NCBI GenBank assembly: GCA_022071945.1
Contig: JAJVIN010000006.1
Coordinates: 1-64,000, forward strand
From: Thermoanaerobaculia bacterium
Lineage (GTDB): Bacteria; Acidobacteriota; Thermoanaerobaculia; UBA5066
DNA length: 64,000 nucleotides
Direction of reading: 5' to 3'
This document shows positions 8,836 to 19,900 of the stretch, in pieces. The notes under the pieces were generated by a model. That model was not told where the DNA came from, ran no database searches, and saw only the letters and a program-made list of their open reading frames with translations. Each line of letters begins with the position of its first letter. Position 1 is the stretch's first letter. The translations under genes and the position numbers were made by a program.

Positions 8836-9291
8836 TTACCCGCCCGGCTTCTTCCTCACGTAGAGCGTCTTCTCCACCCGGGCAACCACGACCCCTTCCC
8901 CGTCGACGACATCCACGACGAAGACCGGTTCCACCTTCCGCTTCGCCTCCACCTCCTGGCGGATCTCCTCGATCCGCTCGGGCGGGATGTGGAACGTCGC
9001 CGTGACCGGACCCTTGCCCGGCTTGAGGAACTCTATCGAGGCGGCCTTGTCCCACACGATGTAGTCCTTGCCGAGGTTCTTCACCAGGATGAAGCAGTAG
9101 AACGGATCGCACATCGAGTAGAGCGACCCGCCGAACTGCGTGCCGAAGAGATTCCGGTTGGTGAACGACAGACCGAGCCGCACCTTGAACGTGTGCGAAT
9201 CGCACTCGTTGTGAAGAACCCGGATCCCCGCACCAAGATAGGGCGGGTAGAGGTTGATGATCCGGAACAGGAAATCCTCGCGCGTCATCAT
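8836..9291 (-). CDS. DUF4442 hotdog-fold protein, putative thioesterase
   Basis: A 151-residue protein with the DUF4442 pattern (NLYPPYLGAGIRV; NRNLFGTQFGGSLYSMCDPF; WDKAASIEFLKPGKG). The fold is hotdog, as in PaaI-type thioesterases, with the central helix around FGGSLYSMCD. Family members are suspected acyl-CoA or related thioesterases; no substrate can be read from the sequence. An AAGGA site sits just before the ATG. It is upstream of the acyl-CoA ligase on the same strand, suggesting a shared lipid function, and diverges from the glycosyltransferase with only 14 bp between starts. Confidence 0.75.
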   Translation of the reverse strand: MMTREDFLFRIINLYPPYLGAGIRVLHNECDSHTFKVRLGLSFTNRNLFGTQFGGSLYSMCDPFYCFILVKNLGKDYIVWDKAASIEFLKPGKGPVTATFHIPPERIEEIRQEVEAKRKVEPVFVVDVVDGEGVVVARVEKTLYVRKKPGG

Positions 9292-9292
9292 C

Positions 9293-9298
9293 TATCCT
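9293..9298 (+). promoter_or_regulatory. Candidate -10 box (TATCCT), leaderless type
   Basis: TATCCT ends 7 nt before the GTG start of the glycosyltransferase gene and no ribosome binding site is visible in that short leader. It would produce a leaderless mRNA. The motif sits in the 14-bp gap between two divergent genes, leaving no room for a conventional leader. Confidence 0.4.
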
Positions 9299-9305
9299 TG
9301 CCAGA

Positions 9306-10301
9306 GTGAAGCTCTTGATCCAGATACCGGCCTGGGACGAGGAAGAGCACATCGGCCGCGCCGTTTCCGATCTCCCCCGCTCCGTGCCGGGCTTTGCTTC
9401 CGTCGAGATCCTAGTCATCGATGACGGATCCACCGATGCCACCGCCCGCGCCGCCCGGGAGGCGGGCGCGGATCACATTCTCCGCCTTCCCATCCACCAG
9501 GGACTCGCGGGCGCCTGGAAGGCGGGCCTCGATGCCTGCCTGAGGCTCGGCGCCGACGTCATCGTCTCGACGGACGCGGACTCGCAGTACGACGCCCGGG
9601 CGATCTCTGATCTCGTCGCTCCCATCCTGCGCGGGGAGGCCGAGTACGTCGTCGGTGACCGCGACCCGGGAACAAAAGCCGACTTCTCAACCCTCAAGCG
9701 CCTCACGCAGCGATTCGGATCCTGGGTCGTGAGACGGACCTCGGGCACCGAGGTCCCGGATGCAACCTCCGGGTTCCGCGCTCTCTCCCGCGAGGCCGCG
9801 CTCAAGCTCAACGTCTTTTCCCGGATGACCTACACCATCGAGACGCTGATTCAGGCCGGCAACAAGGAGATGGCGGTCTCGGCCGTCAAGGTCCGCACGA
9901 ACCCGCCCGTCCGTCCCTCTCGCCTGTTCAGGAAAGCCTGGCGCTACGTCCTGATCCAGGGGGCCAACATCCTGCGGATGACGGCTCTCTACAAGCCCCT
10001 GCCGGTCTTCTTCGGCTTCTCGGCCCTCCTCGTCCTGGCGGGCTCGTCTCTCGTCGTCCGATACATCTATTTCGTCATCATCGACCAGAACCCTCGCGGC
10101 CACGTCCAGTCCCTGCTTCTCGCGACAGTCCTCTTCCTTGCCGCCGTCACATCGTTTCTGACCGGCCTCCTCGCGGACCTGATCTCGATCAACCGGACCC
10201 TTCTCGAGGACATCCTCCTCCGACTGAGACGCCAGGAGCTCCGCCCGTCCGGCGAGCCGCTCGAGACGAAGCAGCCGGCCGATTCCGCGGGCACTGACTG
10301 A
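9306..10301 (+). CDS. Family 2 glycosyltransferase, polyprenol-phosphate type
   Basis: A 331-residue membrane-anchored GT-A glycosyltransferase. The N-terminal catalytic domain shows IPAWDEEEHIG, VIDDGSTDAT (37-46) and the metal-binding STDADSQY (DAD at 90-92). It ends in two transmembrane segments (about 228-256 and 267-292) and a basic tail. This architecture matches dolichol/undecaprenol-phosphate mannosyl- or glucosyltransferases (DPM1/GtrB-like), which load a sugar on a lipid carrier at the inner membrane. The start codon is GTG. The next gene is a YbhN-like membrane protein 44 bp downstream; such pairs are frequent in lipid-linked sugar or glycolipid loci. Confidence 0.85.
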   Translation: MKLLIQIPAWDEEEHIGRAVSDLPRSVPGFASVEILVIDDGSTDATARAAREAGADHILRLPIHQGLAGAWKAGLDACLRLGADVIVSTDADSQYDARAISDLVAPILRGEAEYVVGDRDPGTKADFSTLKRLTQRFGSWVVRRTSGTEVPDATSGFRALSREAALKLNVFSRMTYTIETLIQAGNKEMAVSAVKVRTNPPVRPSRLFRKAWRYVLIQGANILRMTALYKPLPVFFGFSALLVLAGSSLVVRYIYFVIIDQNPRGHVQSLLLATVLFLAAVTSFLTGLLADLISINRTLLEDILLRLRRQELRPSGEPLETKQPADSAGTD

Positions 10302-10345
10302 GCCCCGGGTCCCGCGAGGCTCGGAACTCCATTCAGAGAGGGACC

Positions 10346-11320
10346 ATGAGACGCGTGCTGACGAGCCGGCCCTTCCTTCTCGTCTCGGCCGCCCTCGGCT
10401 TTGCCTGTTTCATCGCGGTCCTCGTGCCCCTGTTTCGTTCGCTGCCACGGGAGACCGTCCAGAAACTCTCGGAGGCGGATCTCGGAACGCTCGCGGCCGG
10501 TCTCTTCTTCCTCGGCGTCGCCTTCCTCTTCCGCGCCATCCGGCTGAACCAGCTGCTCGCCAGGGATCACCGGCTCTCGCTTCTCCGGGCCACTGCGGTC
10601 TCCGCGGCCGCCAACGTTCTCTACAACATCGTCCCGTTCCGGCTCGGGGAGCTCGCGGCCCTTGCCCTCTACCGTCGCGCGACCGGCGGCTCCTGGGGCC
10701 GGTCAGCGGGGCTGACCGTCTTGATCAAGGTCGTCGACATATCCACGGCGCTCCTGGCCGGCGTCAGCGGCGCGCTCTGGCTCTTCGTTGCGGAGCGATC
10801 CGCCGCCGCGAGAGCCACTCCCCTTCTTCTCGCCCTCGCCGGGGCCGCCGGACTCGCCCTTCTCCCGTTCGCCGGCCTCTACATCCTGCAACGGATCGCC
10901 CGGAGACTGGGGATCGAGTCGCGCCTTGCCCGCCTGGTCACGGAGCTGATTCAGGGACTCGAGATCGCGAGAGCCGAGCCAAAGGCCTACCTCGCGTCGT
11001 TTGTGGCCGGGGTGTTCTATCTCGGCTGTCACCTCGGCGGAGCGAAGCTCGTCCTGGCCGCTCTCGGTCTTCCCATTCCGATCGCGCTCGTCGCCGCCGC
11101 CACCGTGGCCTCGGTCACCGCCGCCACGGCTGTCCCGTCCCCTGCCGGCACCTTCGGTTCCTCCGAGGCGGGCTTCGCCGCCGCTCTCGCGGTCACCGGA
11201 ATTCCGCTGGCAACGGGGTTTGTTCTGGCGTCGGCCCTCCACGTGGCGATCGTGGGGACATCGGCCCTCGTTGCCCTCCCCATCCTCCCCTGCCTTCTTC
11301 GCAAGAAAGGCGTACAATAG
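10346..11320 (+). CDS. Lysylphosphatidylglycerol synthase TM-region / YbhN-like membrane protein
   Basis: A 324-residue polytopic protein with about eight hydrophobic helices, matching the LPG-synthase transmembrane (UPF0104/YbhN) family. Family-like segments are LFFLGVAFLFRAIRLNQLL, AANVLYNIVPFRLGELAALALYR and AVPSPAGTFGSSEAGFAAAL (the P-x-G-x-x-G-x-x-E motif). There is no catalytic C-terminal domain as in MprF, so it is a membrane unit alone; such proteins are thought to be lipid flippases or partners of lipid-modifying enzymes. An AGAGGGACC site precedes the ATG. It is cotranscribed with the upstream glycosyltransferase. Confidence 0.8.
   Translation: MRRVLTSRPFLLVSAALGFACFIAVLVPLFRSLPRETVQKLSEADLGTLAAGLFFLGVAFLFRAIRLNQLLARDHRLSLLRATAVSAAANVLYNIVPFRLGELAALALYRRATGGSWGRSAGLTVLIKVVDISTALLAGVSGALWLFVAERSAAARATPLLLALAGAAGLALLPFAGLYILQRIARRLGIESRLARLVTELIQGLEIARAEPKAYLASFVAGVFYLGCHLGGAKLVLAALGLPIPIALVAAATVASVTAATAVPSPAGTFGSSEAGFAAALAVTGIPLATGFVLASALHVAIVGTSALVALPILPCLLRKKGVQ
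11313..11318 (+). promoter_or_regulatory. Candidate -10 box (TACAAT) for the phosphatase gene
   Basis: TACAAT, one base from TATAAT, overlaps the last codons of the upstream membrane-protein gene and lies 57 nt before the phosphatase ATG. No strong -35 is visible. It suggests the phosphatase can be expressed independently of the glycosyltransferase operon. Confidence 0.4.
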
Positions 11321-11375
11321 GCGAAACTTTCGGACCCAAAATCCGTACAACCAGCGAACGCACCGGGAGGAGACG

Positions 11376-12383
11376 ATGGCCAAGACTTCCGACTACTTCG
11401 AGACCTACATGTATCCGGAGCTCGTGGAGCGCCGCGAGAAGCTCCAGGACGCGACGAGATCCCGGCCGGCCGACCCGGGGCTCACCCGCCTCCTCGCCGA
11501 GGTCGACGCGGCGCTGTCCCGAATCGAGGAAGGGTCCTTCGGCCGATGCGAGACCTGTCACGACCCGATAGAAGAGGATCGCCTGCGCGCCGATCCCCTC
11601 CTGCGGTTCTGCCTCGACCACCTGTCCCCCTCCCAGCAAAAAGACCTCGAGGAAGACCTCGAGGCCGCGGCGAGAGTCCAGCGCGCGCTCGTCCCGGCCC
11701 CGAAACTCGAGGTGCCCGGCTGGCACTTCGCCTTCCACTACGAGCCCGCCGGCGTCGTGAGCGGGGACTGCTGCGATCTCTTCACGCCCGACGGCCGCAA
11801 GGACGAGATCTTCTTCGTCTTCGGGGACGTCTCCGGAAAGGGCGTTTCCGCCGCCATGCTCATGTCGAACCTCCACGCCACGTTCCGGAGCCTCGCGGCA
11901 GCCGGTCTGCCCCTTCCCACCCTCGTCGAACAGGCGAACCGGATCTTCCGCTCCACGTCCCTTTCCCGCACGTTCGCGACGCTCGTCGTCGGGCGCCTCT
12001 CGACCTGCGGGAAAGCAGAGATCTGCAACGCCGGCCACTGTCCACCGATCCTGGTCCGGGGCAGCGAGGTCGAAACCATCGCCCCGACCGGCCTCCCCAT
12101 CGGGACTTTCTACAGCTGCCACTACGAGGCGACCAGGGTGACCCTGGAACCCGGCGACACACTCCTGCTCTACACGGACGGGATCACCGAGGCAAGGAAC
12201 GCCGAGGGCGAGGAGTTCGGGGCCGGGAGACTCGAGGAAATGGTGGGCCAGCTCGGGGGGTCGCCGGCGCCGGAGTTCGTTTCGAGGGTCCTCGACTCCG
12301 TCAGGGACCACCTCGGACGGATCCCGAAGGCGGATGACCTCTCGCTCTTCGTCCTCCAGAGGCCGGTGGAACCCGCGAACTGA
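11376..12383 (+). CDS. SpoIIE/RsbU-type PP2C phosphatase with DksA-like zinc finger
   Basis: A 335-residue cytosolic protein. The N-terminal 95 residues look like a DksA/TraR protein: helices with KLQDATRS and DAALSRIEEGSFGRC, then a zinc site C58-x2-C61-x17-C79-x2-H82, where the last cysteine is replaced by His. The rest is a PP2C/SpoIIE phosphatase domain: ARVQRALVP linker helix, VSGDCCDLF, FGDVSGKGVSAAMLMS, LLYTDGITEARN and ADDLSLFVL carry the metal-binding aspartates. RsbU-type enzymes dephosphorylate anti-sigma-factor antagonists. The zinc domain may be the sensory input, or link the phosphatase to RNA polymerase; that is inference. A GGGAGGAGACG site fixes the start. Confidence 0.88.
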   Translation: MAKTSDYFETYMYPELVERREKLQDATRSRPADPGLTRLLAEVDAALSRIEEGSFGRCETCHDPIEEDRLRADPLLRFCLDHLSPSQQKDLEEDLEAAARVQRALVPAPKLEVPGWHFAFHYEPAGVVSGDCCDLFTPDGRKDEIFFVFGDVSGKGVSAAMLMSNLHATFRSLAAAGLPLPTLVEQANRIFRSTSLSRTFATLVVGRLSTCGKAEICNAGHCPPILVRGSEVETIAPTGLPIGTFYSCHYEATRVTLEPGDTLLLYTDGITEARNAEGEEFGAGRLEEMVGQLGGSPAPEFVSRVLDSVRDHLGRIPKADDLSLFVLQRPVEPAN

Positions 12384-12393
12384 GTCCGTCCGC

Positions 12394-12427
12394 CAGGACC
12401 GCGGCCCTACATGGAGCTGCGGTCCTG
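12394..12427. terminator. Hairpin between convergent genes
   Basis: CAGGACCGC and GCGGTCCTG form a 9-bp perfect stem around a 16-nt loop, between the phosphatase stop (plus) and the last codons of the radical SAM gene (minus). It could act as a shared terminator, though it lacks a T-run on either side and overlaps the radical SAM stop codon. Confidence 0.35.
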
Positions 12428-14209
12428 CCAGGGCCCGCCCAGAACGTCCGCGGCCGGCGCCGGCGTCAGGATCCCCTTCTTTCTCTGCTTTCTCTGCTCC
12501 TCGACGAAGTGCTTCGTCAGTTCGCGGGAGAAGCTCGAAAAGACCTTCCCGAGAAGCTGCCAGAAGGAGTACTTCATCGGGTAGATCCTCATGCCGAGGA
12601 CGTATCCCCTGACGAGGAAGTACGCCAGGAAGTAGAGGCGAGTCAGCTTCCGGTGGACGAGATGCCTCATCGCGAACTTCCGGAAGCGGGGAAAGACGAG
12701 GAGAAAGACACCCAGAAACGAGAGGTTCAGCTGCTGCCGCTTCTCGTCCTCGGAAAAGCACGTGAAGGGCGACTCGGCCTGGAACGTCTCGTTCAGCTTC
12801 TCGAAATCGCCGTCGAAGGCGCCGATGTCGATCGTGTACTGAGTCAGGGGCGTTCCGGGATACGGGCTCAGCTGCACGAACTCACCGGACGTCACCTTGC
12901 AGTCGATGTTGATGTCGACCGACTCCTTGTCGTAGTCGATCGTGTCGAATCTCAGCCCCAGGGCATGGAACTGACCGGCCAAGTCCTTCCTCTGTGCCAT
13001 CGAGAGCGGCGAACCGTCGCCGAGACCCTTCCTGAGACTCTCCGTCTTGATCCGGAAGTGCTGCTCCAGGTGTGACACCAGATCCGCCGCCTTCTGGTCG
13101 AAGCCGGGCGCGTCCACCTTGGGAATGACGGGCGTCGGGACGGCCAAGATCGTGTTCGAGAACGTCTTGACACCAAGCTGGTGGCACAGGTCGAACGCGA
13201 ACCGGATCTCGGACTCCTCCATGCTGCGCCTGAAGACGTGCTTGCGGATGAAGTCGTTGCCCGACTCGATGGACATCGTGATCGAGTGGAGCCCGGCTCT
13301 CTTCAGAGTCGAGATGATCGAGGGGTCCTTCTTGACGAGGTCGCAGCGCGTCAGGCAGTGAAAGGGCAGTCCGATGACCTTCGGGTACTTGTCGGCGAAC
13401 TCCACGAGCCAGTCATCGGTCCGGAACGTGAAAATGTCGTCGTAGAACTTGATGAATTGCGCCGGGTACGTCCGCTTGATGTCGAGAAGCTCCTCGAGGA
13501 GCCTGTCGACGCTGTAGCGGTTGATCGTCTTGCCCTTGCGCTTGTAGAGCTCGTTGAACTTCGCGTTGAAGCAGTACGTGCACGGATACGGGCAGCCGCG
13601 CTGGGCGATGAAGGTCCGCATCCCGAAGTGCTTGAGCGCGGTCTTCTCATAGACGAGGGCCCGGTCGTGAAACGGGAGGTCGTCGAGGAAGTTCGTCCGC
13701 TCGCGCAGGTTCACCGTCCCGTCTGGACGGCGGTTCGACCTCGTCACGATGCCCGGAATCTCGTCGACAGGTCCGTTCTTCGCCATCGCCTCGAGAAGGT
13801 CCGGCCAGGTCTGGTCCGCCTCGCCCACACACAGCATGTCGAGGGACGTCTCCTCGGGAGGCAGCGGCTTTCCCCCCCGAACGATGGGCTGCCATTTCAA
13901 GTCCTCGCCCAGGAGACGCATTCGGGCGTGATTGAACGTCGGATGAGGTCCCCCCATGATCGAGAGGATCCTCTCGCCGTAGCGCTCCTTCACCTCGCGG
14001 TTGACCTTGAAAAAGACGTTGCTCTCGCCCGTCTTCGCGCTGTAGGCGATCAGGTGCGGCCGGATGGCGTCGATGTCTCTGTGAAGATCCCCGTGCTGGA
14101 GAACATTCAGGAAGGTCTCGTGCCCGCCTTCCTTGGCCAGGGCGGAGAGCAGCTCGATGTTGAGCGGATCGATGTTCTCTTCCTTGGCCATCACGAAAAG
14201 GATCTTCAT
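12407..14209 (-). CDS. B12-binding-type radical SAM protein
   Basis: A 600-residue enzyme with an N-terminal cobalamin-binding-like Rossmann domain (about 1-150: MKILFVMAKEEN, IMGGPHPTF) and a radical SAM core with the cluster motif C206-x3-C210-x2-C213 in QRGCPYPCTYCF. The core continues with FYDDIFTF and SIESGNDFIRKHVFRR. Such proteins (BchE/HpnJ-like group) carry out methylations, cyclisations or rearrangements, often of lipids or cofactors. The C-terminal 100 residues contain a weakly hydrophobic stretch (FLGVFLLVFPRF; LYFLAYFLVRGYVLG), suggesting membrane association. The B12 domain lacks an obvious DxHxxG motif, as is usual in this class. The ATG at 14209 follows an AGGAAGTGAC site. Confidence 0.85.
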   Translation of the reverse strand: MKILFVMAKEENIDPLNIELLSALAKEGGHETFLNVLQHGDLHRDIDAIRPHLIAYSAKTGESNVFFKVNREVKERYGERILSIMGGPHPTFNHARMRLLGEDLKWQPIVRGGKPLPPEETSLDMLCVGEADQTWPDLLEAMAKNGPVDEIPGIVTRSNRRPDGTVNLRERTNFLDDLPFHDRALVYEKTALKHFGMRTFIAQRGCPYPCTYCFNAKFNELYKRKGKTINRYSVDRLLEELLDIKRTYPAQFIKFYDDIFTFRTDDWLVEFADKYPKVIGLPFHCLTRCDLVKKDPSIISTLKRAGLHSITMSIESGNDFIRKHVFRRSMEESEIRFAFDLCHQLGVKTFSNTILAVPTPVIPKVDAPGFDQKAADLVSHLEQHFRIKTESLRKGLGDGSPLSMAQRKDLAGQFHALGLRFDTIDYDKESVDINIDCKVTSGEFVQLSPYPGTPLTQYTIDIGAFDGDFEKLNETFQAESPFTCFSEDEKRQQLNLSFLGVFLLVFPRFRKFAMRHLVHRKLTRLYFLAYFLVRGYVLGMRIYPMKYSFWQLLGKVFSSFSRELTKHFVEEQRKQRKKGILTPAPAADVLGGPWQDRSSM

Positions 14210-14308: not shown

Positions 14309-14899
14309 TCACGCGGGCCTGGTGTACCGCGATCCGGGGGCGATGATCGTCCGGCCAGCCTGGCAGAGGGGGCAATCCTCCGGAGACCAGGTGGGAATCT
14401 CGAAGGGCAGGAGGGCCAGGAAGGGGATTCCCCCGACGAGGTGCGTCTTCTTTTCTCCCCGGCGGTCGACGATCGCACCCGCGGCAACCGGCTCCGCCCC
14501 GCTCGAGGTGACGAGTTCGAGGATCTCCTTCGTGGACTTCCCCGTCGTGACGACATCCTCGATCACGACGACCCTCTCTCCCTTTTCCAGGGCGAATCCG
14601 CGTCTGAGGCTGAAGGCTCCGTCCGTCCGTTCGGCGAAAAGGGCCCTGATTCCAAGAGCCCGCCCCGTCTCGTGTCCGATGATGATGCCGCCCATGGCGG
14701 GCGAGATGACGGCCCGGGGCTGGAAGGGCGCGAGGAGCTTGCCAAGCGCCTGGCCCAGGGCGAGGGCGCGTTCCGGCCATTGCAGGACCTTCGCGCACTG
14801 CAGGTAGCGGTCCGAATGGAGCCCGGACGACAGCTTGAAGTGCCCTTGCAAAAGGGCTCCCGTCGCCTCGAAATGTGCCTTCACGTCGGCTTCGTTCAT
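14309..14899 (-). CDS. pyrE: Orotate phosphoribosyltransferase
   Basis: A 196-residue type I phosphoribosyltransferase that makes orotidine 5'-phosphate from orotate and PRPP in pyrimidine synthesis. The PRPP loop VVIEDVVTTGKS is at 111-122; FKLSSGLHSDRYLQC and SPAMGGIIIGHETGRALG fit PyrE rather than Apt or Hpt. The C-terminus carries EDCPLCQAG, a CxxC seen in some PyrE branches. The ATG overlaps the stop of the NtrC-family regulator by 4 bp (ATGA), an unusual operon partner. No other pyr gene is in the window. Confidence 0.92.
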   Translation of the reverse strand: MNEADVKAHFEATGALLQGHFKLSSGLHSDRYLQCAKVLQWPERALALGQALGKLLAPFQPRAVISPAMGGIIIGHETGRALGIRALFAERTDGAFSLRRGFALEKGERVVVIEDVVTTGKSTKEILELVTSSGAEPVAAGAIVDRRGEKKTHLVGGIPFLALLPFEIPTWSPEDCPLCQAGRTIIAPGSRYTRPA

Positions 14900-16455
14900 G
14901 GTTCTTCGCCCCCTGGTTTCCGGCGGTCCTCGGAATCGAGCCGCTCCCTCTTGAGACCGTAACGCTCCATCTTCTTGTACAGATTGGATCTCGGGGTCTC
15001 CACGGCCTCGGCCGTCCGCGTGACGTTCCACCCATTCTCGGCGAGTTTCGCCTCCAGGAACAGTTTCTCGGCTTCGTCCTGGAACTCCTGCAGGGTCCGG
15101 ATGGCCAGAAGCCGGGCCCAATCTCGATCCGGGAGGGCGGCCGGCGACGGGATGTCGGAGGGCATCGAGGGCGGGGGCTCTGAGGACCCCTCGGCCGGAG
15201 CCGGGATGGACCCATCCGGCAGGGCCGTGACGACGCGCCCTCCCCGGACGACGATCTGGGGGGGATCGGTTCCGGGCGGTCTCTCATCTCGAGCCGGGCC
15301 GAGACCCGAGAACAGCGTCTCGATGGCGGGTGCGTCGATGACCTCGCCATCCACCATGATCATGAGGCGCTCGACGGCGTTCTTCAGCTCCCTCACGTTT
15401 CCCGGCCAGGGTCTCTTGGCCATCGCCTCGAGCGCGGCGTCGGTGTAGCGCTTGGGCCGGTAGTTGTTGTTCCGGGCGAAGCTCTCGGAAAACGTCAGGA
15501 CCAGTTCCGGGATGTCCTCGGGGTGCTCGCCCAGGGCGGGCGTCAGGATGGGAAGAACGTTCAGACGATAGTAGAGATCCTCGCGGAACTTCCCCTCCCG
15601 GATCCTCGCCGGCAGGTCCTGATTGGTGGCGGCGATGACGCGCACCTTGACCTTGACGACCCTCGGGCTGCCCACGGGCTCGACCTCGCCTTCTTGCAGA
15701 ACGCGGAGGACCTTTGCCTGGGCGGGGGCCGACATGTCGCCGATCTCGTCGAGGAAGATGGTCCCGCCGTCCGCCTCGACGAACTTTCCCGTCTGCTTGC
15801 GGTCGGCGCCCGTGAAAGACCCGCGCTCGTGCCCGAAGAGCTCGGACTCGATGAGGGAATCGGGGATCGCGGCGCAGTTGACCTGAACGAACGGCCCGTT
15901 CCTGACGAGAGAAGCCTCGTGGATCGAACGGGCGGCGAGTTCCTTGCCACTCCCGCTCGGGCCCAGAAGAAGGACGGTCGCGGGGGTCGGCGCGGCGCGG
16001 GCCACCTCCTGAATGAGTCTCTGCATCCTGCGACTCCCGCCGACCAGGCGGGTGAGGCCGAGCCGTCTCTTCAGTTCCTGGTTTTCCCGCGCCAGCCGCG
16101 AGCTGTCGATGACGCGCCTCAGGGCATTGAGAACGTGCTCGCTTCCGAGGGGCTTTTCCAGGAAGTCATTGGCTCCGCCCCGGATCGCCTGCATCGCGGT
16201 CCTCACGTCGCCGTGTCCGGAGATCATCACGATGGGGGTCGTGATCCCGCGGGAACGGATCTTCTCGAGGGTCTCGAGACCGTCCTGGCCGGGCATCTTG
16301 ATGTCGAGGAGGATCGCGTCGTAGTCGGGGGCCTCGCCCGCAGCGATCGCTCCGGAGCTGACGGCCGTGACCTCGAAACCCTCATCCGACAGGAGCATCC
16401 TGAGCATCTCGCGGATGTCGGCCTCGTCGTCACAAACCAGGATTCGCGCGCCCAT
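14896..16455 (-). CDS. NtrC-family sigma-54-dependent response regulator
   Basis: A 519-residue regulator with a receiver domain (phosphoacceptor D51 in LLDIKMPGQDG, K101), an AAA+ sigma-54 activation domain (Walker A GPSGSGKE 165-172, loop GSFTGA 212-217 in place of the commoner GAFTGA, Walker B GTIFLDEIGD 231-240) and a Fis-type helix-turn-helix at the C-terminus (WNVTRTAEAVETPRSNLYKKM). A Pro/Ser-rich linker of about 80 residues joins the last two. It should activate sigma-54 promoters after phosphorylation. No histidine kinase gene is adjacent, so its partner is elsewhere. The ATG at 16455 follows AGGAG; a TATCCT hexamer lies 8 nt before it. Confidence 0.93.
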   Translation of the reverse strand: MGARILVCDDEADIREMLRMLLSDEGFEVTAVSSGAIAAGEAPDYDAILLDIKMPGQDGLETLEKIRSRGITTPIVMISGHGDVRTAMQAIRGGANDFLEKPLGSEHVLNALRRVIDSSRLARENQELKRRLGLTRLVGGSRRMQRLIQEVARAAPTPATVLLLGPSGSGKELAARSIHEASLVRNGPFVQVNCAAIPDSLIESELFGHERGSFTGADRKQTGKFVEADGGTIFLDEIGDMSAPAQAKVLRVLQEGEVEPVGSPRVVKVKVRVIAATNQDLPARIREGKFREDLYYRLNVLPILTPALGEHPEDIPELVLTFSESFARNNNYRPKRYTDAALEAMAKRPWPGNVRELKNAVERLMIMVDGEVIDAPAIETLFSGLGPARDERPPGTDPPQIVVRGGRVVTALPDGSIPAPAEGSSEPPPSMPSDIPSPAALPDRDWARLLAIRTLQEFQDEAEKLFLEAKLAENGWNVTRTAEAVETPRSNLYKKMERYGLKRERLDSEDRRKPGGEEP

Positions 16456-16463
16456 GACTCCTG

Positions 16464-16469
16464 AGGATA
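16464..16469 (-). promoter_or_regulatory. Candidate -10 box (TATCCT) for the NtrC-family gene
   Basis: TATCCT ends 8 nt before the ATG at 16455. Here an AGGAG also fits in the leader, so a leaderless transcript is less certain than for the other examples. Confidence 0.3.
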
Positions 16470-16510
16470 GCAATCACCTCGCCCGGCGGGTGGGTGGAGG
16501 CGGAGCGGCG

Positions 16511-16551: not shown

Positions 16552-16815
16552 TCACTTCCTCGACTTCAGCTCCGCGACCAGCTTGATGTAGTCCTGCATG
16601 GCGGCGTCTTTTGCCTTGCCTTTTTCCTTGCCCCAGGCGTCGTACTTGGCCCGGCCCTCGAAATCGAGCATTCCAGGCCGGCTGCCCGAAACGTCTCCGG
16701 AGGTCGCCTGCTTGTAGAGCGCGTAGAGCTTCAGGAGAGAGTCGTTGTCCGGTCTCTTGGAAAGGCCCTTCACGTCCTCCGCGGCTTTCTCGAACTGAGC
16801 TTTCAGGTCGGCCAT
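16552..16815 (-). CDS. Acyl-CoA-binding protein (ACBP)
   Basis: An 87-residue protein that matches eukaryotic-type ACBP across its whole length: FEKAAEDVKGL at the start, LYALYKQATSGDV in helix 2, then RPGMLDFEGRAKYDAWGKEKG and DYIKLVAELK. The tyrosine, lysine and tryptophan residues known to contact the CoA and acyl chain are conserved. It should bind medium- to long-chain acyl-CoA in the cytosol as carrier or buffer. The ATG at 16815 has AAGAGG 8 nt upstream; another in-frame ATG two codons earlier is too close to it. The gene stands alone between the NtrC-family gene and the divergent c-di-GMP protein. ACBP is patchy in bacteria. Confidence 0.9.
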   Translation of the reverse strand: MADLKAQFEKAAEDVKGLSKRPDNDSLLKLYALYKQATSGDVSGSRPGMLDFEGRAKYDAWGKEKGKAKDAAMQDYIKLVAELKSRK

Positions 16816-16914
16816 CGTCATCACCTCTTCTGTGGAGCTTGGGAAAACGCGGCTGACTCTATGGGCCGAGAAGAAGCTCGTCAACAGGCAAGAAGACAAG
16901 GGCGAAAGCAAGAG

Positions 16915-16920
16915 TACGAT
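16915..16920 (+). promoter_or_regulatory. Candidate -10 box (TACGAT), leaderless type
   Basis: TACGAT ends 7 nt before the ATG at 16928; AAGACA lies 16 nt upstream of it as a possible -35 (16893-16898). No ribosome binding site is present, so a leaderless mRNA for the GGDEF/EAL protein is likely if this is the promoter. Confidence 0.4.
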
Positions 16921-16927
16921 ATTCACC

Positions 16928-19900
16928 ATGTGGCCAGCTTCTTTCAGGGCTGCCGCAAGGGACGAGGAAAGCGGACCCCGGCGCAGGGACGAGTCTCTCG
17001 CAGGTCCTTTTCTCGCCGCCCTGATGGTCCTCACCGCTGGCCTTTGCCTCACGTTCGCGCTTTACGGCTGGGAGCGCCGCACCTCGAGCTCGAGCTTCGA
17101 CCAGAACTTCCGTTCGGACGCCTCCGTGCGGGCTCACGTCATCGAGGACGGCTTCGAGAAGCGGCTCATCGAAATGGACGCCACGAGGCGATTCCTGGAT
17201 GGCTCCGAGGAAGTGACTCCCACGGAGTTCCTCGGATTCGTGGCCCCCATGCTGGCGCAGAAGACCGGGATCTCGGCCATCGGGTGGATGGCGCGCCAGC
17301 CGCAGTTGGCGCGGGACCCGTCCGCCGGCAGTCTGAGTATCCGTCTGTTCGAGCCTGCCAACGCCTCGGCCGCAATGGGCGAGCCCATTCGAGACGCGCT
17401 CGAACGCCATCTCCATGGGCACCCGGCCACCGGGACTGGCGGGTTTGCCCTGATCCTCCCGCAGGAGGCCCCTCTGAGCAGGCCCGACGGTCGGCTCGTG
17501 ATCGCGCGGCCGACCCACAGGCATACCGGCCCCGTTCTCGATCACCAGATCTCGGGATACGTCTTCGCGGTCCTCGACGCGCCAGCGCTCCTTCGCTTTT
17601 CGATTGGCCGGACCAGTCCCATCGGGCTCTACTCGTGGGTCCGGGCAAGGCCATCGCCCGGCTCGACCACCCTGCTCGCTTCGTGGGAACCCCGGCTTAC
17701 GGTGCCGGGGAGCCCGTTCCCGGGGACAGACGAGCTCCTCGCGGCGACCTATGAACACTCGTTCTCCCTTCTGGGTCTCAGGATCCTCGTACGGGTCAGC
17801 CCGGCGCCTTCCTATGTCGCGAACCACTGGAAGCGTCTACAGTTCTTCATCTTCCCGGCCGGAGTCCTCTTCACCGGTCTCGTGACTGGCCTCGTCGTCG
17901 TCCTGATCACGCAGAGGAGGAGAGCCGAGAAGCTGGTCGCGGAGCGGACGCACGAACTGAGCGAAAGCGAGCAGAAGCTCCGGACGATCGCGGACTTCAC
18001 GGTGGGCTGGGAGTACTGGGTGAGCGAGACCGGGCAGCTCCTGCACGTGTCTCCCGCGGTGGAGAGAGTGACGGGCTTCACGGCTCAGGAGTTCGAAGCC
18101 GATTCAGACCTGATCTACCGGGTCGTCCATCCCCTCGACCGGAAGAGCTTCGAGGACCACATGGCCGCCTTCCATGGCGGCCCGGAGGCGCGGGTCAAGT
18201 GGGACGAGCTGGAGTTCAGGATCGTGACCGCTTCGGGCGAGGAGAGGTGGATCAGCCATCTTTGCCGTCCCGTGACGGATCGCTCCGGAAGCTACCGCGG
18301 CCGCCGCGTTTCGAACCGGGACGTGACCGCGGCGAAGCTCGCCGAGGCGACGCTGAAGGAGCACGACCGGCTCTACCGGGCCATGTTCGAGTCCAACAAC
18401 GCCGTCAAGCTCCTCGTCGACCCGGAAGACGGAAGAATCGTGGACGCCAATCCCCTGGCGGCGGAGTTCTACGGTCATTCCAAGGAAGTCCTGCGGGAAC
18501 GCTCTATCCTGGACCTGACGGCGCTCCCCGCCTCCCAGGCCAGCGCGTCCCTCGCCGCGGCGCTACGGGGCGAGCGGACCGCGCGCCAGTTCCCTCACCA
18601 CACCGCGTCGGGACAGATCCGAGACGTCGAGATCCACAGCGGCCTGGTCGAGATCAAGGGGCGAAGGCTCCTCTTCTCGATCATCCACGACGTCACGGAC
18701 CGGAACCGGGCCGAGGCGGAGCTCAGGCTCGCCGCGAAGGTCCTCGAGAGCAGCGGCGAGGCCGTTCTCGTAACCGATGCCTCGGCCAACATCATCTCCG
18801 TCAATCGCGCCTTCACGGAGGTCACGGGCTACGGCCCCACGGACGTTCTGGGAAAGAACCCCCGGATCCTCGCGTCGGGCCGGCACGACCGCGACTTCTA
18901 CATGCGGATGTGGACCTCTCTGGGAAAGTCGGGCCGCTTCAGCGGCGAGATCTGGAACCGCCGAAAGAACGGTGAGATCTACCCCGAGTGGCTGAGCATC
19001 AGCACGGTCAAGGACGCGAGCGGAAAGATCACGAACTATGTGGCGATCTTCTCGGATGTTTCGGAACGAAAGGCGGCGGCCGAGAGGATCGAGTTTCTCG
19101 CCCACCACGACCCGCTGACGGGCCTCTTGAATCGCACCCTCCTGGCGGAGCGTCTGGACCAAGCCATGGCCCTGGCGAGAAGAAACGGACGGATCGTGGC
19201 CCTTCTCTTCCTCGATCTCGACCGGTTCAAGAACGTCAACGACTCGCTCGGACACCTGACGGGGGACCGCCTCCTTCAGGAGGTGGCGAGTCGTCTGAAA
19301 GACTGCGTGCGAACCACGGACACGGTTGCCCGTCAAGGCGGCGACGAGTTCCTCGTCATCCTCGCGGATCTCTCCAAGCCCGAGGGGGCGTCCCTCGTCA
19401 CGAGGAAAATCCTGGAGCGCCTCGCCGAGCCCTACGACCTCGAAGGAGCGCGGCTCTCCTCCACGGTGAGTGCCGGAGTCTCGCTCTACCCGGCGGACGG
19501 GCAGGATTTCGAGACGCTTCTCAGAAAAGCCGACACCGCGCTGTACGACGCCAAGGAGAGCGGGAGGAACACGTACCGGTTCTTCTCCGATGCGATGAAC
19601 GCCACGCTCCTCGAGAGGATCGAGCTCGAGACGCTCATGCGCCGGGGCCTGGAGCGGGGTGAGTTCCGCCTCGTGTATCAACCACAGTTCGACATCCGGA
19701 CGGGGAGGGTCACAGGCACCGAGGCCCTTTTGCGCTGGAACTCACCCGAGCTCGGGGCGGTGCCGCCGAGCCGCTTCATTCCGGTGGCCGAGGAGTCCGG
19801 ACTCATCCTCCCCCTTTCGGAGTGGGTCCTCTTCGAGGCCTGCCGGCAGAATCGAGAGTGGCAGCAGGAAGGTATTCTCAGGGCGCCGGTCGCGGTCAAC

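Follow-up and report, generated by a model that had tools for sequence, protein, structure and literature searches.

Bacillus subtilis RsbU is a PPM phosphatase built from an N-terminal domain (residues 1-81), a linker (82-112) and a catalytic PPM domain (121-335). According to the available part of a report on this protein, the N-terminal domain holds the dimer together, and the linker helices remain flexible until they are ordered by the partner protein RsbT, whereupon the phosphatase domains dimerise and become active (PMC12143880). The same part of that report suggests, from predicted structures, that this linker mechanism also operates in PPM phosphatases that bear receiver, GAF or HAMP N-termini (PMC12143880).

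DksA and TraR are built on a different plan. As set out in the accessible portion of one study, the elements of TraR comprise a DxxDxA motif at the active site of RNA polymerase, arginines of the globular domain at the rim of the channel, and a C-terminal helix; R48 of TraR is important for binding the rim helices, and in DksA the counterpart Asp residues of the motif sit at the tip (PMC9239242). In that portion of the study, a C4 finger is neither always required for DksA-like function nor proof of it, and DksA-like proteins missing DxxDxA among other features did not act as DksA does (PMC9239242). DksA2, as far as the accessible part of a second report describes it, has two Cys and no zinc (PMC9213440).

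Here we describe a protein in which a single helix joins a DksA/TraR-type finger to a SpoIIE/RsbU-type PPM phosphatase. It is encoded in a 64-kb window, the whole stretch of DNA that was analysed, by a 335-aa open reading frame on the + strand that begins with an ATG at 11376, directly downstream of a ribosome-binding-like GGGAGGAG, and ends at 12383; the assignment of the whole gene draws on the open reading frame, Pfam and homologues. The fusion of a DksA-type finger to an RsbU-type phosphatase, read from the letters alone in the original prediction, was borne out by both Pfam profiles, which score above their cut-offs: zf-dskA_traR (PF01258) matches residues 53-81 with 33.8 bits against a cut-off of 24.9 (E 3.3e-8), and SpoIIE matches residues 143-329 with 157.1 bits against a cut-off of 25. 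Pfam finds no classical sensor domain in the protein. The scores for the NCBIfam DksA equivalogs lie below their cut-offs (TIGR02420, 35.5 against 115.5 bits; NF033459, 40.1 against 105), and NCBIfam returns below-cut-off matches only, to DksA/YteA/TraR and RssB/SiaA/SpoIIE models. The protein shares with B. subtilis RsbU a similar length and plan, an N-terminal helical domain followed by an alpha-helical linker and a C-terminal PPM domain, and the catalytic Asp residues are kept. In contrast to RsbU, its N-terminus is a DksA-type hairpin with a putative metal finger rather than an RsbU-N domain, and no rsb gene lies among the six neighbouring genes of the window that were scanned.

A search for this architecture, proposed as a check on the original prediction, found it to recur. 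The front part (residues 1-108) has matches with E no higher than 1e-10 in 55 of 396 genomes sampled evenly across Acidobacteriota (37 of 210 genera, source genome included) and in 14 of 395 genomes of the Melioribacter phylum (query genome included). All 44 of the 55 Acidobacteriota matches that were read as proteins extend at least into the phosphatase domain. Judged by these matches, the finger-phosphatase is a recurrent family and a real combination of two known domains. Named relatives come from a Thermoanaerobaculaceae MAG and a Paludibaculum MAG, both of Acidobacteriota, and from a Melioribacter MAG. The distribution of the gene is patchy, since within the family group of the source a match better than 1e-30 occurs in just 2 of 13 other genomes. 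The 14 matches from the Melioribacter phylum consist of that of Melioribacter itself, seven near the main family (L121-L127) and six that are diverged (L128-L133); in all six of the latter the stretch leading up to the third Cys differs, reading E-x-D-[FY]-[TS] by eye, and the fourth ligand is His. Two further members are irregular: the frame of L079 stops after 154 aa, within the phosphatase, and the family match at G079:C121:7382-7594 contains two internal stops. These copies may be decayed genes or assembly errors.

Among mobile elements, viral contigs gave no relative by profile, with none of 48 pattern matches confirmed, and phage records gave two weak partial matches, over the finger. 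Plasmid records gave 332 matches to the whole protein, all below 60% identity, 57 of which cover 80% of the query; among the 10 listed matches, three of those that reach into the front part were scanned by profile, two of them over the matched stretch alone, and showed SpoIIE together with PAS, SpoIIE by itself, and SpoIIE together with GAF, in each case with no zf-dskA_traR. The front part as query gave 99 plasmid matches, none covering 80% of it, and the names among the 12 listed are DksA, YteA, DnaK-type or none. In the literature searched, which comprised titles and the starts of abstracts and left subscription papers mostly outside its coverage, no description of a fusion between a DksA finger and a PPM phosphatase was found. 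As far as these searches show, the combination is undescribed, while both domains are known.

The alignment of the family was assembled in two steps. Its first 48 rows hold 44 of the 55 Acidobacteriota matches together with G009 and L013-L015, and 13 rows were later added from the Melioribacter phylum to give 61, the source protein included. Ten matches (G209, G069, G178, G303, G199, G169, G227, G241, G256 and G264) were omitted only for want of fetched flanks, and the frame-broken G079 was omitted as well; two rows, L038 and L079, are short. The rows were picked by similarity of the front part, and the scope of the alignment thus excludes fusions with more diverged fingers.

The finger occupies residues 53-83 (11532 to 11624, + strand), as delimited by Pfam, conservation and ligand changes. 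The spacing C58-x2-C61-x17-C79-x2-H82, noticed at the outset as that of DksA/TraR, can be read directly off the translation. E. coli DksA (1tjl) has the same spacing, C114-x2-C117-x17-C135-x2-C138 as counted on the alignment, with Cys as the fourth ligand. C58, C61 and C79 are invariant in all 61 aligned members, and position 82 is occupied by His in 41, Cys in 12, Asp in seven and Glu in one. The pattern is therefore not a product of chance, since three Cys are invariant and the fourth position is restricted to H, C, D or E among 61 homologues. The exchange of the last Cys for His, noted in the original prediction, is real, and with His in 41 of the 61 it is common in the family rather than odd. 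Cys stands at all four ligand positions in 12 members; the finger of the source protein, being C-C-C-H, is classed within the Pfam domain as a C3H variant rather than a C4 finger.

The state of position 82 requires at least 13 changes on the best maximum-likelihood tree, computed with the finger columns excluded; this tree is unrooted and partly resolved, with 25 of 58 inner branches open, and its well-supported branches by themselves require 4 to 5 changes for each state. The states are clustered on the tree, 13 changes against a shuffled mean of 18.6, as expected of inherited states. Sister pairs on starred branches nevertheless differ at this position: L058 (C) and L066 (H), L063 (H) and L082 (D), and L084 (D) and L087 (C). 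Because repeated exchange stays within zinc-binding residues, position 82 behaves as a metal ligand would. The four finger positions together show ligand-like behaviour in the alignment, the mark of a metal ligand, the metal itself being putative; Glu at position 82 in row L095 is the weakest case for this reading.

Ligand sets of the C3H and C3D type are known in Fe-S proteins, and CXXCH is the haem-c string. On these grounds the site could hold iron, as an Fe-S cluster or as a mononuclear centre, or the CETCH string formed by C58-x-x-C61-H62, which fits CXXCH, could be a haem-c site. Against iron in either form, the predicted fold and the spacing are those of DksA, a zinc finger. Against haem c in particular, residue 62 is His in only 43 of the 61 members while C79 is kept in all 61, and haem-c attachment is extracytoplasmic whereas no signal peptide is evident by eye in the sequence. 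We consider an iron or haem-c site highly improbable.

Ahead of the finger, the models place an N-terminal alpha-helical hairpin (11379 to 11531, + strand; helices at residues 2-29 and 34-52), a short DksA-like coiled coil without a DxxDxA tip that was assigned from the models, the matches to DksA structures and a motif count. The AlphaFold2 prediction of the whole protein (mean pLDDT 85.6) consists of these two helices, the finger, a helix at residues 85-105 and then the PPM domain. The front part alone was predicted with a mean pLDDT of 84.7 in the best model and of 73.0 to 60.4 in the other four; these predictions are of monomers only and used shallow input alignments of 4 natural sequences. 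In Foldseek, DksA-family structures fill rows 1-8 for the front part with E of 2.7e-4 to 3e-2, below 0.001 for the first of them only, and the next row has an E of 1.5. In VIA-align, six DksA-family entries lead with Z of 10.3 to 8.2, ahead of a next row at 6.7. Since helical models can readily give Z values below about 13, the call of a DksA fold rests on the finger, the gap to the next row and the agreement with the sequence profiles. A shortened hairpin is indicated by the VIA-align superposition, in which the 90 aligned residues are spread over 122 residues of 1tjl. The front part is thus predicted to fold like DksA, as a finger with an antiparallel coiled coil, but with a hairpin shorter than that of DksA.

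The likeness of the pre-finger helix to DksA, also part of the original prediction, holds in the models, in Foldseek and VIA-align, and in the alignment to 1tjl; both a coiled coil and a finger appear in the predicted structure, and DksA occupies Foldseek rows 1-8 and VIA-align rows 1-6. This helix and the predicted fold are shared with E. coli DksA (1tjl) and P. aeruginosa DksA2 (4ijj). The finger-phosphatase differs from DksA in its short hairpin, in the absence of a DxxDxA tip, in a fourth ligand that is often His or Asp, and in a C-terminal helix that continues as the linker to the phosphatase. The source genome encodes one other zf-dskA_traR protein at E up to 0.001, on contig G000:C4 (L120, 3945-4328). 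This stand-alone DksA-like protein of 127 aa shares the Pfam domain with the finger-phosphatase but has a four-Cys finger and no phosphatase.

The further proposal that the front part is a secondary-channel binder of RNA polymerase is not supported by comparison across the family. Such a protein would dock at the rim of the secondary channel like DksA/TraR and bring its phosphatase to RNA polymerase, and both the DksA-like predicted fold (Foldseek, VIA-align) and R69 speak for this; counted from the second Cys, R69 aligns with DksA R125 and TraR R48, and this rim-contact position is Arg in 46 of the 61 members. The conserved Arg may, however, be structural, and no DxxDxA-like string stands at the hairpin tip in any of the 61 rows, the source protein among them. 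The strings of the form D..[DE].A that precede the finger in 5 of the 61 rows are off-tip: each starts 17 residues ahead of the first Cys, in the second hairpin helix, which adjoins the finger. The hairpin is also shorter than that of DksA, the C-terminal helix has been turned into the phosphatase linker, and, in the part of the study available, the DksA-like proteins devoid of DxxDxA failed to act as DksA does (PMC9239242). Docking in the manner of DksA/TraR is improbable on this balance. Because the tip DxxDxA is missing and the C-terminal helix forms the phosphatase linker, the finger-phosphatase is not filed as a DksA/TraR regulator, a placement that its sequence does not support. The kept rim Arg leaves docking without entry into the active site possible, though it makes no strong argument. 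In an extended form of this idea, to which we give marginally less credence still, the module would dock on RNA polymerase through the finger without active-site entry, and the phosphatase would be carried on the polymerase, releasing sigma control at the very site to which the freed sigma has to bind, and the variable fourth ligand would tune sensitivity to metal or redox state. It is more likely that the finger holds and regulates the phosphatase than that it binds RNA polymerase.

The phosphatase domain extends over about residues 110-329 (11703 to 12362, + strand), as judged from Pfam, fold and Asp counts. The whole model matches PPM phosphatases, with a Foldseek E of 1.3e-16 to a PPM structure, and the closest solved PPM folds are those of the P. 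aeruginosa RssB C-domain, Rv1364c, SiaA and SpoIIE. D131 and D151 are present in all 61 members and D268, D320 and D321 in 59, the remaining two rows being gaps. We take D131, D151, D268 and D320/D321 to be the metal-binding Asp residues of the PPM fold, and on this alignment the catalytic Asp set is intact. The matches to RssB of P. aeruginosa, SiaA, Mycobacterium Rv1364c and SpoIIE, close as their PPM folds are, start after the finger; the input parts of these proteins are receiver, sensor or other domains, with no DksA finger.

Between finger and phosphatase lies the linker helix, residues 85-105 (11628 to 11690, + strand), which enters the phosphatase and was assigned from the models and from a hydrophobic stripe. 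The stripe is formed by L91, L95, A98, V101 and L105 and contains a polar position 94 (Asp in 60 and Glu in one of the 61 members). It is comparable, polar D94 included, to the linker model described in the available part of the RsbU report (PMC12143880), and the pattern may be general to such phosphatases. In the model the helix starts three residues after the fourth ligand, H82. Since the fourth ligand sits so close ahead of the helix, the metal would pin the linker-helix start.

We favour, with a probability of about 0.6, an RsbU-like partner-switching phosphatase in which an N-terminal, metal-pinned DksA hairpin feeds the linker helix. The protein would be a cytoplasmic RsbU-type serine/threonine phosphatase of PPM fold in which a DksA-derived module, a short helical hairpin with a one-metal C-C-C-(H/C/D) finger, replaces the PAS, GAF, receiver or RsbU-N domain. 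The metal, presumably zinc, would fix the start of the linker helix through the fourth ligand three residues ahead of it. The hairpin and finger may dimerise the protein or receive a partner, and would set the order of the linker helix, as in B. subtilis RsbU, thereby switching the phosphatase; the finger would anchor the linker, whose order would shift in response to a partner or to an altered metal site. The substrate would be a phosphorylated RsbV-like STAS protein, and partner switching would make an RsbW-like kinase release its client, whether a sigma factor or another. A metal-finger module of this kind would add to the set of exchangeable N-termini on RsbU-type phosphatases, and the protein hints at recruitment of the DksA fold for a role other than RNA polymerase regulation.

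Within that probability falls a special case in which the signal is named. Redox or zinc sensing by the finger, raised in the original prediction, is possible: the finger would act as a thiol switch in which oxidation, nitrosation or loss of zinc releases the beginning of the linker helix, switching the phosphatase on or off. Henard in 2014 and Crawford in 2016 are said to have reported DksA fingers as thiol switches, and the three invariant Cys and the fourth ligand adjoining the linker helix are consistent with such a role. Sequence, however, does not tell such a switch from a structural zinc site; 49 of the 61 members have His, Asp or Glu in place of the fourth Cys, leaving no conserved four-Cys switch; and even the commonest neighbour accompanies the gene at only 6 of 48 loci. 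We consider this special case unlikely. Some of the same observations bear on another view, that the finger is a structural cap stabilising a constitutive phosphatase that is regulated by expression alone. The lack of a classical sensor domain in Pfam and of a common neighbour would fit a cap, as would ligand swaps that preserve the site and not thiol chemistry, but polar residues away from the metal site are strongly kept, namely R19 (55 of 61), R20 (52), D44 (58) and D94 (60), and suggest more than a cap. A purely structural role is in our judgement a doubtful though not far-fetched reading. Family members that naturally carry His, Cys or Asp at position 82 offer a ready panel for distinguishing a structural site from a switch.

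The genomic context of the partner-switching phosphatase that we favour gives few leads to its partners. Upstream lie genes for a family-2 glycosyltransferase and an LPG-synthase-TM protein, and downstream a convergent radical-SAM gene. Neighbourhoods were compared over 48 loci by blastp clustering of mechanically called open reading frames, up to about 6 kb on each side, with several loci clipped by contig ends and some frames spurious, and in this comparison no common neighbour was found: the largest non-family cluster touches 6 of the 48 loci and the next ones 4 and 3. That largest cluster, by eye a histidine-kinase-like protein, occurs at varying offsets and on both strands. The stretch from 9000 to 12600 contains no promoter-like site and a single terminator-like one, inside the gene and on the opposite strand; shuffled sequence gave a mean of 2.0.

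Elsewhere in the source genome, a whole-protein search returned 19 matches, of which 18, the query itself included, cover the phosphatase and one covers the finger only; among the 18 phosphatases the finger is present only in the protein encoded at 11376-12383. HATPase_c_2 has 26 matches in the genome; two strong matches, on contigs C35 and C28, correspond to short RsbW-like frames that stand alone, each adjoining one of nine STAS matches. The C35 pair (G000:C35; L118, 4494-5331, minus strand) places an RsbV-like STAS protein of 113 aa side by side with an RsbW-like kinase of 156 aa. None of the genome's whole-protein matches to the phosphatase lies on C35, so an unlinked phosphatase may serve this pair if it works by partner switching, and the finger-phosphatase is one candidate among several for that role. 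Because there is no rsb gene among its six neighbours and no neighbour in more than 6 of 48 loci, its substrate and partner are guesses among the nine STAS matches and 18 phosphatases. That the finger-phosphatase is linked to general-stress sigma control is plausible from its family.

At G000:C2:198676-199692, SpoIIE-type and HATPase_c_2 matches lie close together on one strand, both within a 548-residue open frame that probably encodes a fusion of phosphatase and RsbW-like kinase. Two further genes of the window, both on the minus strand, encode a response regulator with sigma-54 activator and Fis-type domains (14896-16473) and an acyl-CoA-binding protein whose ACBP domain scores 103.5 bits (16552-17052).
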